From: Floccifex porci
Lineage (GTDB): Bacteria; Bacillota_I; Bacilli_A; Erysipelotrichales; Erysipelotrichaceae
Direction of reading: 5' to 3'
Length of the DNA: 64,000 nt
Assembly: GCF_009696175.1 (NCBI RefSeq)
Contig: NZ_VUMM01000002.1
Coordinates: 1 to 64,000, forward strand
Under the pieces are notes generated by a model. It was not told the origin of the DNA, did not search any database, and was given only the letters and a program-made list of their open reading frames with translations. Numbering within the stretch: the stretch's first letter is position 1; each line of letters opens with the position of its first letter. Position numbers and translations under genes: made by a program. Shown here piece by piece: positions 501 through 12,213 of the stretch.

Positions 501-520
501 AGGGCACTTTTTTATGCCCT
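501..520 (-). terminator. Terminator of the glycoside operon
   Basis: Minus-strand stem AGGGCA / TGCCCT with an 8-nt loop is followed by a TTTTTC tract. The stem overlaps the TAG stop of the last GH1 gene. It separates the leftward glycoside operon from the rrn UP element, which starts within about 10 bases. Confidence 0.8.
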
Positions 521-1961
521 AATCTAAATCTTCTCCATTGGTCTCAATTAACTTTTTATACCAGTAAAACGATTTTTTCTTTCTTCTTGAAAAATCTCCC
601 GAACCATCGTCGTATTTTTCAACATAAATAAACCCATAACGTTTTCGCATTTCTCCGGTAGAAGCACTGACCAGATCAATGCATCCCCATGGTGTATAGC
701 CTTTTAAATTAACACCATCTAATATGGCTTCATGCATCTGTTCAATGTGTGATTTTAAATAATTAATTCGATAATCATCCTGAATACTTCCATCTTCTTC
801 TATTTTGTCATAAGCACCCAATCCATTTTCCACTACAAAAACAGGCAACTGGTAACGATCCCATATTTCATTCAACGAAAAACGTAATCCTTCTGGATCG
901 ATTTGCCATCCCCAGTCACTCGCTTTTAAATACGGATTTGGCACTCCTCCCAATAAATTTCCTTTTCCTAAAATCTGTTTTTCTGGATCTGAAGTCTGGC
1001 AGTTTGACATATAATACGAACAAGTATAGAAATCAACACATCCTTCTTTTAAAATCTGCTCGTCATTGTCTTTCATATGAATTTCGATATTGTTTTCTTT
1101 AAAATATCTATGAATATAATTTGGATATTTTCCTCGACACTGTACATCCGAACAAAACCAGTTCATAATTTGTGATTGTTTCTGATTGTATAATACATCA
1201 GCTGGTTTACAAGTTAAAGGATAGCTGGTTGCCATAATATTCATACATCCCACTTGATAATTTTCATCGATTTCATGAGCCAGCTTTACTGCCAATGCAC
1301 TGGCTACAAACTGATGATGCAATCCCTGAAAACGATTTTGGGGAATATCAACCTGATTCATAAATTCCATTTCTTTAATTTCATTTAAGATTCCCTGATT
1401 TAAAAATCCTCCCACAGGTGTAGTCGCACTATTAATTTCATTAAATGTCAGCCAGTATTTTACTTTTCCTTTGTATCGAGTAAAAATCGCTCTACAGTAA
1501 TTCAAATAACAATCAATCATTTCTCGACTTACCCAGGCATTGAATTTTTTTGTCAATCCAAATGGCACTTCATAATGAGAAATGGTAATCATTGGTTCAA
1601 TATTATATTTTAAACACTCATCAATTAAACGATCATAAAACTGTAAACCCTTTTCATTTGGTTCTTTCTCATCTCCATTTGGAAAGATACGAGTCCACGA
1701 AATGGAAAAACGATACATTTTAAATCCCATTTCCGCAAACAATTTAATATCTTCTTTATATCGATGATAATGATCGATGGCCTGATGAGATGGATAGAAA
1801 ATACCTTCTTTTATTTCTGGAGTGATTCGTTTCGAAGTATTTGCACTTCCTCCTGTACAAATATCTGGACAGGCTATCCCTTTTCCATCTTCATTCCAGG
1901 CACCTTCAAGCTGGTTGGCAGCCGTAGCCCCACCCCAATAAAAATCTTTTGGAAACGCCAT
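519..1961 (-). CDS. 6-phospho-beta-glucosidase (GH1), last gene of operon
   Basis: Glycoside hydrolase family 1, 480 aa, cytoplasmic and without a signal peptide. It hydrolyses 6-phospho-beta-glucosides delivered by a PTS. The acid/base Glu is E175 in TFNEIN and the nucleophile is E378 in VVENG. The C-terminal [10 protein letters not shown] block carries the Ser/Lys/Tyr pattern that binds the 6-phosphate in family members. I chose ATG 1961 (MAFPKDF), not the upstream in-frame start at 1988. It lies 1 base after the stop of the preceding gene, has GGAGAGG in front, and starts just like its neighbour. It is a diverged tandem paralogue of the gene at 1963-3378. Aglycone specificity cannot be read from sequence. 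Confidence 0.93.
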
Positions 1962-10768: not shown

Positions 10769-12213
10769 TTCAATCCTCTTTTCTTAGCCAATGAAACAGC
10801 AATCTTCACAAGTTTATCGGCATCTTCTTTGCAGATAAATCCTTTAGATACTTGTTCTTTGGTATCTTTTCTACATAACTTTTCATAATTGGATAAAGAA
10901 CCATACAATTCCTGTAAAAAACTGGCAGAAAAAGCTTTCTGATATCCAAATAAAGGATCTTTATCACTAGTGGGATCCACAAAACTTTGACCAATTTCAA
11001 CCTGACTTGAAGCACTATATCGAGCGGTTGGATAGTTTAATAAACAAGTTCTTAATCCACCCATCGTATTTCCAAAAACATCTTTTGAATTGCTTCCATC
11101 AAATTCCATACGAATGCGCTGACAGGAATTGGGTCCAATTCCATCTCGAACCCATTGAAATAAATTTCGGAAAGCGGCCGCAAATAAAATCTGTGAAGGA
11201 TAATCGTTTCCTTCTTCATGTTTACCATGATATTCAGGAAGCATATGAATTCGTTTCAGATCTTTGTCATTGCGATAATAATTCACATAACTGTACATCG
11301 TATCGTGTGAACTTCCTGTCACCTCGTATTCACGATACAGGAAATTCGGATCGTTGCTATCCATTCTCTTGGTCCGGAAAGCATCAAATTGCCCATTTTC
11401 ACTTTCAGTCTGTACAGAAATTAATGGTTCTGGACAATATTCCACTCGAGTTAAACGAAAATCATAATCCATACAAGATTCATATTGATTGACTGGAACA
11501 ATTAAATTTCGAATTCCTCCACCTGCCAGATATCCATCAAATGTCTTTTCTTTACGAAAACTGTTTAAATAGCGAAATAAGTAACACGCAGATTGTGACC
11601 ATCCCGTTAAATAAATATAGGAATGAGGATATTTTTCAATTGGATTGGATGCATCCTCTTTTCTTAAAAGTTCATTTAAATCTGTCAACATATCCCAGAA
11701 CAATCCAGTTTCGTAAGATACATCTAAATCCGGCAGTAAATGTTTTCGAATCACATCTTCCTGTGTAAAAGGAAAAGGTTCTGGATTGGGATTTGGCCAC
11801 GACAAAGATTTATATCGATCTTTATCAAATTCAATCAATTTTGCGATGGTGTTAGGTTTACTGGTAATACCTACATAAATATCTTGATCCCGAATAAACT
11901 TTTCATGTCCCAGAATCCACATTCTTTCAATTTCCATAAAAGAAGTAGGATTTATGATCTCTACAACTACATTTCCACTTGCCTTTTCAACATTCTCTGG
12001 CATACGAACAACGATTCGATTCTGATAAGAAACATCTTTATATTTGATTTTTACTTCACCTGTATTTCCATCACTTTCATATACATTGCTGGTTCCCATA
12101 ATAAAATATTCTTTTTCAATGTAATGATTCTTTTTAAAATCACAGTATTTAGCTGCACTTGAAAACGGATAGCTTTCTTCTGTGATGGGAATTTCCTGGA
12201 TTTTATGAATCAT
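10765..12213 (-). CDS. Alpha/beta hydrolase (putative glycoside esterase)
   Basis: 482 aa alpha/beta-hydrolase-fold protein with nucleophile elbow GWSQSA (Ser about residue 215), and DYDFRLTRVEYCPEPLISVQTESE and TGSSHDTM supplying likely acid and His regions. It resembles the uncharacterised 'alpha/beta hydrolase domain' family. It is the first gene of the operon. ATG 12213 is used because AAAGGAG stands before it; the longer reading from 12312 would run into the divergent lacI gene. In a plant-glycoside operon an acyl esterase removing acetyl, malonyl or cinnamoyl groups is a reasonable guess only. Confidence 0.65.
   Translation of the reverse strand: MIHKIQEIPITEESYPFSSAAKYCDFKKNHYIEKEYFIMGTSNVYESDGNTGEVKIKYKDVSYQNRIVVRMPENVEKASGNVVVEIINPTSFMEIERMWILGHEKFIRDQDIYVGITSKPNTIAKLIEFDKDRYKSLSWPNPNPEPFPFTQEDVIRKHLLPDLDVSYETGLFWDMLTDLNELLRKEDASNPIEKYPHSYIYLTGWSQSACYLFRYLNSFRKEKTFDGYLAGGGIRNLIVPVNQYESCMDYDFRLTRVEYCPEPLISVQTESENGQFDAFRTKRMDSNDPNFLYREYEVTGSSHDTMYSYVNYYRNDKDLKRIHMLPEYHGKHEEGNDYPSQILFAAAFRNLFQWVRDGIGPNSCQRIRMEFDGSNSKDVFGNTMGGLRTCLLNYPTARYSASSQVEIGQSFVDPTSDKDPLFGYQKAFSASFLQELYGSLSNYEKLCRKDTKEQVSKGFICKEDADKLVKIAVSLAKKRGLK

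Follow-up and report, generated by a model that had tools for sequence, protein, structure and literature searches.

A predicted operon of Floccifex porci for apiin-type apiosyl glucosides and the recurrent linkage of a small GH140 type to phosphotransferase systems

Nine genes arranged as a single compact operon on the - strand (12213-519) of a 64,000-nt stretch of the Floccifex porci genome (GCF_009696175.1, contig NZ_VUMM01000002.1, positions 1-64,000; termed the window below) probably serve, with the phosphotransferase system (PTS) encoded beside them, the import and degradation of plant glucosides that carry 2-linked apiose, of the apiin type. The pathway that leads on from apiose is already known, and what is new is a small GH140 type that travels with a PTS in four lineages and with three PTS types. 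An original prediction had read the operon as a catabolic set for apiose-containing beta-glucosides taken up by a PTS, and this interpretation is largely supported. No description of a PTS linked with an intracellular GH140 in apiose use was found in the open papers searched, which agrees with the novelty proposed earlier for such a joint route; the claim made here reaches no further than those papers.

In the proposed scheme, the apiosyl glucoside would be imported and phosphorylated at C6 of glucose by a beta-glucoside-type PTS, which the original prediction had invoked and which is indeed present, though outside the interval assigned to the operon, at 13286-17686 (- strand). One or both of the cytosolic GH140 enzymes would then cut off apiose, the GH1 enzymes would hydrolyse what is left, a 6-phosphoglucoside, to glucose 6-phosphate and aglycone, and the esterase would strip acyl groups, so that the imported glucoside would be cleaved inside the cell. 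The freed apiose would be converted to apulose by the FucI/AraI-type isomerase and to apulose 4-phosphate by the AplK-like kinase, and the split transketolase would transfer a two-carbon unit onto glyceraldehyde 3-phosphate, giving dihydroxyacetone phosphate and xylulose 5-phosphate. The known apiose route comprises the same reactions, in which an isomerase, an apulose kinase and an apulose-4-phosphate transketolase lead to the same two products. Phosphorylation of glucose at C6 by a PTS leaves room for a 2-linked apiose, as in apiin, but would clash with a 6-linked one. A sugar kinase would be retained despite the PTS because the released apiose carries no phosphate.

Searching the named genomes with an alignment of isomerases yielded at least 585 confirmed relatives, and the best 80 loci were analysed. 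Near the isomerase, the transketolase chains tktA and tktB were found in 79 and 77 of these 80 loci and the kinase in 75; among the five loci without a kinase, L064, L119 and L131 end at a contig edge, while L112 and L120 do not obviously do so. The loci are mostly labelled as Lachnospiraceae genera or as that family, and a LacI gene stands upstream on the opposite strand in 48 of them, with gaps of 138 to 4,617 bases. In the regions upstream of 52 operons (another, the 53rd, was empty), no CG-centred operator palindrome was shared, and the two words found occur at one locus each. The isomerase is rare in the class of the window, a match of at least 300 bits being present in 4 of its 296 genomes, the host included.

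The linkage between PTS and small GH140 was counted in 84 loci other than the window, namely L036, L038, L049, L050 and the 80 named loci, with author-set thresholds of 100 and 200 bits. Both were found together in eight loci, the GH140 alone in two (both on contigs of 7.9 kb), the PTS alone in one and neither in 73, whereby L075 and L099, whose GH140 is of another type (114-119 bits), were counted as without. Fisher's test gave a P of 9e-9 for loci that are related to one another and to which Listeria and L036 supplied the queries. The four lineages in which the linkage recurs, and which support the PTS coupling predicted earlier, are an Erysipelotrichaceae-like one (the window and L053, so labelled from the nearest relatives in the kinase tree), Listeria, genome G029 (L036) and a Lacrimispora/Hungatella group that includes the Paenibacillaceae-labelled L072. 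The linked PTS are of three types, with split IIBC and IIA, with a fused IIBCA, or with a lactose/cellobiose-type IIC. L053 (CANSSP010000002.1) is binned as Roseburia and carries the PTS and the apiose locus, its kinase being closest to those of the window and of Erysipelotrichaceae, which points to either a transfer or mis-binning. In addition, the Pseudobutyrivibrio locus L069 has an apiose cassette with a PTS IIBC and with GH1 and GH43 relatives nearby, and no small GH140 match.

Three hydrolase types accompany the cassette, of which only the small GH140 is a safe apiosidase, as a prediction from alignment and model. Its D154 and E238 occupy the catalytic positions when aligned with solved GH140 apiosidases, corresponding to the Asp/Glu pair that we take to be the catalytic dyad of BT1012, and the best matches of its model (mean predicted local distance difference test score, pLDDT, 74.9, dropping below 50 in places) in the Protein Data Bank (PDB) are the apiosidase 8t9w (template modelling score, TM, 0.80) and BT1012 (5msy, TM 0.78). 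The long protein is classed only as GH140-like, since the standard catalytic Asp is replaced by Glu (E241/E326 at the catalytic positions), a change that recurs in its relatives at L053, L054, L055, L057 and L067; it matches 3kzs/5msy weakly. The third type, with DUF5060 and NE/DE motifs, is found in many cassette loci. At E 0.001, PF13204 occurs in the host genome (2.02 Mb, 44 contigs) only in the two operon proteins. The prediction had described the hydrolases as lacking signal peptides, and none was seen on their N-termini, read by eye; of its two GH1 6-phospho-beta-glucosidases, the one at 1963-3396 passes the family cut-off and the one at 519-1988 falls just short of it.

The reference sequences for the downstream enzymes came from Enterobacteria. 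The non-oxidative D-apiose pathway of Pectobacterium and Escherichia, with ApsI, AplK and AptAB, was reportedly set out by Carter et al. in 2018. The genes aplK, aptA and aptB of E. coli SE15, named by locus tag in the available passages of PMC13001218, were used here as references; the same passages state that Escherichia strains carrying the cluster grow on D-apiose and K-12 does not, that Escherichia is without apsI and the Pectobacterium cluster has it, and that earlier work described gut Bacteroides and Clostridia as apiose users. The Sodalis, Klebsiella and Rahnella plasmid clusters have a make-up near that of the Escherichia apiose cluster, with an isomerase replacing two Escherichia oxidoreductases, which fits the statement in those passages that Escherichia lacks apsI. 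Trees were built from the window, L036, L038, Listeria, Monoglobus and 20 loci hand-picked from the 80 named.

In the transketolase tree, 24 operon pairs and the four enterobacterial Apt pairs form one clade of 28 (support 100/99), outside which lie two other split transketolases of the host genome and three pairs from sulfo-transketolase-like (sulfo-TK-like) loci; the window pair accordingly falls within the AptAB group by sequence, its tktA being 41.9% identical to E. coli SE15 AptA (and 48% to another split transketolase of its own genome) and its tktB 33.2% to AptB. In the isomerase tree, the window protein groups with its counterparts from the Sodalis, Klebsiella and Rahnella apiose clusters (100/99), and a tree joining these three with four sulfo-TK-type isomerases was rejected (p 0.0018). 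Its E293, D295, H335 and H425 lie within 20 columns that are invariant across 34 sequences. Searched against PDB sequences as a single sequence, the isomerase gave no match up to E 1, and as a profile it matched L-arabinose isomerase (E 0.002); its partial model matches isomerases for L-arabinose and L-fucose, which is a lead only because the model is weak in the C-terminal half (mean pLDDT 59.7).

For the kinase, pairwise identity was tried as a test of function and set aside as misleading, the window protein being 40% identical to another GlpK-like protein of its own genome and 35.7% (36% when rounded) to E. coli SE15 AplK, and trees and pocket residues were used instead. The 25 operon kinases and four enterobacterial AplK form one clade against seven GlpK and a xylulokinase (100/99, and 98/99 after three further long outgroup rows were added). 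Among the 116 columns invariant in the seven GlpK, five are replaced in all 25 operon kinases and 24 in all four AplK; four are replaced in both sets, and all 29 sequences agree on the letter there (hypergeometric P for the overlap 0.006). Two of these four correspond to Gln246 and Phe270 in E. coli GlpK, residues that we take to be glycerol-site contacts; the window kinase has neither, with S235 and S259 in their place (Q246S, F270S). In the best trees the window kinase is thus predicted to belong to the AplK group and not to GlpK. The cassette kinases of Listeria (L049:8485-9948) and Monoglobus (L050:17207-18694) are annotated as glycerol kinase despite the AplK pocket changes, a label that is probably a mis-annotation in both records.

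The original prediction would have been undermined if kinase, isomerase and transketolase had clustered with enzymes that act on a different sugar. The best trees showed no such clustering: all three group with the Escherichia, Sodalis, Klebsiella and Rahnella enzymes, apart from GlpK, from sulfoquinovose-type isomerases and from the other split transketolases of the host. Two results limit this outcome, one in the kinase tree and one in the isomerase tree, and they are given with the further observations that weigh against the proposed route. The approximately unbiased (AU) test leaves standing a tree with AplK beside GlpK (p 0.26, at a cost of 4 log units), the AplK branch being long. The isomerase group also contains the protein of L039, whose gene has other sugar genes but no transketolase around it (excluding it from the clade was rejected, p 0.028), and the isomerase family alone therefore does not fix the substrate; moreover, the name ApsI is given to the enterobacterial isomerases for where their genes stand, not on the strength of an assay. 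E238 of the small GH140 sits where the model has low confidence. With respect to transport, the window PTS is a transcription unit separate from the operon, and among the 80 named loci its type stands beside the cassette in L053 only; 73 of these 80 have no PTS match, several of their contigs being short. The eight loci with both PTS and GH140 are not independent, since five are near relatives (three Lacrimispora, one Hungatella and the Paenibacillaceae-labelled bin) and Listeria and L036 are sources of the queries, and the GH140 match of L072 is in two pieces, owing to either a broken gene or a sequencing error. Finally, the growth test of PMC13001218 compares strains, and its available passages mention no gene deletion.

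These transport observations would suit an alternative, considered unlikely but the strongest of those weighed, in which the apiose pathway is correct, another transporter serves apiose or apiosides, and the PTS serves an unrelated glucoside. In its favour are also the separate PTS units with their own LicT-type gene and their cre-like and RAT-like elements, and the ABC (ATP-binding cassette) transporter matches at some of the loci without a PTS. However, no ABC transporter was found among the scanned proteins of the window locus, whose operon itself includes the GH1 phosphoglucosidases, and across loci the PTS is linked with the small GH140 type. As for gene order, the cassettes of Listeria and L036 have the PTS gene inside, with the kinase on one side of it and the GH140 on the other, and in five Lacrimispora-like loci it stands on the same side, before the GH140.

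A different branched or unusual sugar, released by the GH140-like enzymes and degraded by the same isomerase-kinase-transketolase logic, is less probable again, at roughly one chance in ten by our estimate. Identities of just 33-42% to the Escherichia enzymes leave room for it, as do the absence of the standard Asp from the long GH140-like protein and from the DUF5060 type, and the other context of the isomerase family at L039. At that locus (L039:8295-14261), the isomerase relative is near genes that resemble, when read by eye, those for a class II aldolase, a PfkB-type kinase, an FGGY kinase and an ABC transporter, with no transketolase match, which perhaps reflects a different pathway built on the same isomerase family. 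Against this alternative, the three enzymes of the window group with those of apiose clusters, and the small GH140 best matches apiosidases.

That the kinase is an ordinary glycerol kinase in a loose set of sugar genes is very improbable: its score on PRK00047 is barely above the GlpK cut-off (499.2 against 498 bits; 500.8 on TIGR01311) and that of the Monoglobus kinase well above it (578.1), which together with the 40% identity to the GlpK-like protein of the host and the indecisive AU test could be read in its favour, but E. coli AplK scores alike (490.4 and, on TIGR01311, 495.3), the pocket positions are substituted and the kinase is kept at 75 of the 80 loci.

Sulfoquinovose degradation by the sulfo-transketolase route, the subject of PMC11659671 as far as its available part goes, was considered for the reason that the sulfoquinovose isomerase SftI is the only NCBIfam match of the window isomerase, and a related isomerase likewise accompanies a split transketolase at sulfo-TK-like loci. 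It was rejected, and is the least probable of the alternatives, on the sub-cut-off score (115.9 bits against 700, with the Sodalis apiose-cluster isomerase alike at 118.7), on the separate isomerase and transketolase clades and on the neighbours. The marker set of that pathway is presumably SftI together with RpiB, an aldehyde dehydrogenase and GH31; RpiB-, aldehyde dehydrogenase- and GH31-like genes were seen by eye in the sulfo-TK-like loci, which have no kinase match, whereas none of the three was found among the scanned proteins of the window locus. The sulfo-TK label of L041, L042, L043 and L180 comes from SftI-like isomerases and from these neighbours. The four loci belong to genomes of the window's class, one (G127) in its family, and the SftI scores in G172, G127 and G110 are 384-415 bits, below the same cut-off.

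With apiosyl glucosides as the probable substrate, the layout of the locus can be described further (Table 1). Profile scans found all the families named in the original prediction in the nine genes. The open reading frames (ORFs) as listed overlap at every junction, and some real starts may be slightly further in. An upstream start at 12312 is possible for the esterase ORF and would add a hydrophobic N-terminus; the start at 12213, where the operon had been predicted to begin, is the better one by sequence, because it follows an AAAGGAG ribosome site and does not overlap into the divergent LacI gene.

Table 1. Features of the predicted apiosyl glucoside locus in the window.
Feature	Coordinates	Strand	Evidence
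Terminator-like hairpin at operon end, overlapping the last stop codon	501..520	-	motif scan
GH1, 6-phospho-beta-glucosidase-like	519..1988	-	NF007158, 622.6 bits, just below cut-off 639
GH1 6-phospho-beta-glucosidase	1963..3396	-	NF007158, 871.5 bits vs cut-off 639
Small GH140, predicted intracellular apiosidase	3381..4628	-	PF13204, 282 bits; alignment; model
FGGY kinase, predicted D-apulose kinase (AplK-like)	4622..6085	-	tree; S235, S259
Split transketolase C-terminal chain, AptB-like (tktB)	6082..7008	-	PF02779/PF02780; tree
Split transketolase N-terminal (thiamine diphosphate) chain, AptA-like (tktA)	7005..7832	-	PF00456; tree
FucI/AraI-fold aldose-ketose isomerase, predicted D-apiose isomerase	7825..9222	-	tree; partial model; invariant residues
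Long GH140-like hydrolase (DUF5060+Apiosidase+Collagen_bind_2)	9209..10768	-	Pfam; motif alignment
Abhydrolase_10 esterase-like protein, operon gene 1	10765..12213	-	PF20091, 316.9 bits; AAAGGAG before start at 12213
Divergent LacI-family regulator	12251..13249	+	PF00356/PF13377
PTS EIIBC, beta-glucoside group	13286..14701	-	best TIGR01995, 353.7 bits, below cut-off 614.7
RAT-like LicT-target sequence, then terminator hairpin	14780..14843	-	GGATTGTAAC exact at 14842-14833; hairpin
LicT/BglG-type antiterminator	14834..15661	-	CAT_RBD + PRD; NF046042, 228.3 bits, below cut-off 300
Promoter-like site TTGACA-17-TAAGAT, overlapped by a perfect cre-like site (15705-15718)	15691..15719	-	
GH43-like hydrolase	15795..17228	-	PF04616
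PTS EIIA	17228..17686	-	PF00358; TIGR00830, 152.4 bits vs cut-off 97.5
Second perfect cre-like site, upstream of EIIA-GH43	17820..17833	+	
Weakly GH106-like hydrolase	17846..20323	-	PF17132 below cut-off; NF049897, 50.7 bits of 1300; homologue in syntenic L053

The EIIBC is without a IIA, and TIGR01995, on which it stays below the cut-off, covers IIABC fusions; the Listeria PTS passes it with 882.6 bits. Ahead of the EIIBC gene stands a sequence resembling the ribonucleic antiterminator (RAT) motif, which we take to be a LicT target, and it is followed by the hairpin (-24.5 kcal/mol, z -3.2); matches to GGATTGTAAC with at most one mismatch number 8 in the window, where 7.7 are expected by chance. 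Judged by the consensus that we assume for the catabolite-responsive element (cre), the two perfect cre-like sites are the only ones in the window, and both lie at PTS genes. The GH106-like gene is probably part of the same locus, as its homologue in L053 suggests. The overall scan of the window for hairpins and promoters was not above chance (9 terminators against 9.4 in shuffles, 74 promoters against 69.8).

Elsewhere in the window, the 5' part of a 16S rRNA gene (- strand, 1-258) lies at the edge just downstream of the operon and was the sole Rfam match in positions 1-24000. The region 36373-43337 holds a SIS-domain protein together with four short ORFs and a sigma-54-activator/PRD regulator, and another SIS protein adjoins a HAD/PfkB-like protein at 59576-62043; both regions may concern the use of amino sugars or glycated amines.

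Apiose is common in plant glycosides, over 1,200 compounds being counted in the available part of PMC10602602. The PTS route, if true, would let gut Bacillota retain the whole apiosyl glucoside rather than cutting it outside, and it supplies testable genes for how apiin-type flavonoids are converted in the gut. Genes labelled 'glycerol kinase' and 'beta-glucosidase', including those of an uncharacterised Listeria monocytogenes operon, would also gain a possible function. A more tentative extension, by analogy with the GH1 phosphoglucosidases that act on glucose, is that the PTS-linked GH140 may be a phospho-apiosidase, cutting apiose from glucosides phosphorylated on glucose, and that the same chemistry may be the true function of the Listeria monocytogenes operon that resembles lmo1030-1036; we rate this somewhat below an even chance.

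In comparison with known systems, the Listeria monocytogenes operon at L049 clusters LacI, isomerase (71% identical), the transketolase pair, kinase, PTS and a GH140-like DUF4038 protein as the window does, and differs in its IIBCA-fusion PTS inside the operon and in lacking a GH1, an esterase and a long GH140. Judging by gene order and annotation, with no locus tag, it is apparently lmo1030-1036, which the available passages of PMC2996996 list as one of eight variably distributed clusters, annotated as hypothetical protein, transketolases, glycerol kinase and PTS; there lmo1030 is a BglG-family regulator, but the regulator of L049 is annotated as LacI. In the accessible part of PMC8079631, lmo1036 is annotated as beta-glucosidase and lmo1035-1036 is a target of the RNA RliI.

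The window shares with the enterobacterial D-apiose pathway a glycerol-kinase-type FGGY kinase and a two-chain transketolase, and with the Sodalis, Klebsiella and Rahnella clusters an isomerase of the same family. The four enterobacterial clusters rely on RbsABC-like ABC import and a sugar-binding regulator, with no glycoside hydrolase annotated adjacent, whereas LacI, hydrolases and PTS are linked in the window. GH140 enzymes cut 2-linked apiose in pectin, and the Bacteroides GH140 apiosidases are extracellular. The small GH140 shares the fold and both catalytic residues with BT1012 and 8t9w, from which it differs in its identity of 20-23%, in the lack of a signal peptide by eye and in the PTS linkage. 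LicT-regulated beta-glucoside PTS operons are likewise known in Bacillota, and the window resembles them in its LicT-type antiterminator, RAT-like hairpin, cre-like sites, EIIBC plus EIIA and GH1 phosphoglucosidases, while its EIIBC and EIIA are separate, its EIIBC and LicT-type gene score below the family cut-offs, and its GH1 genes stand in the operon on the LacI side.

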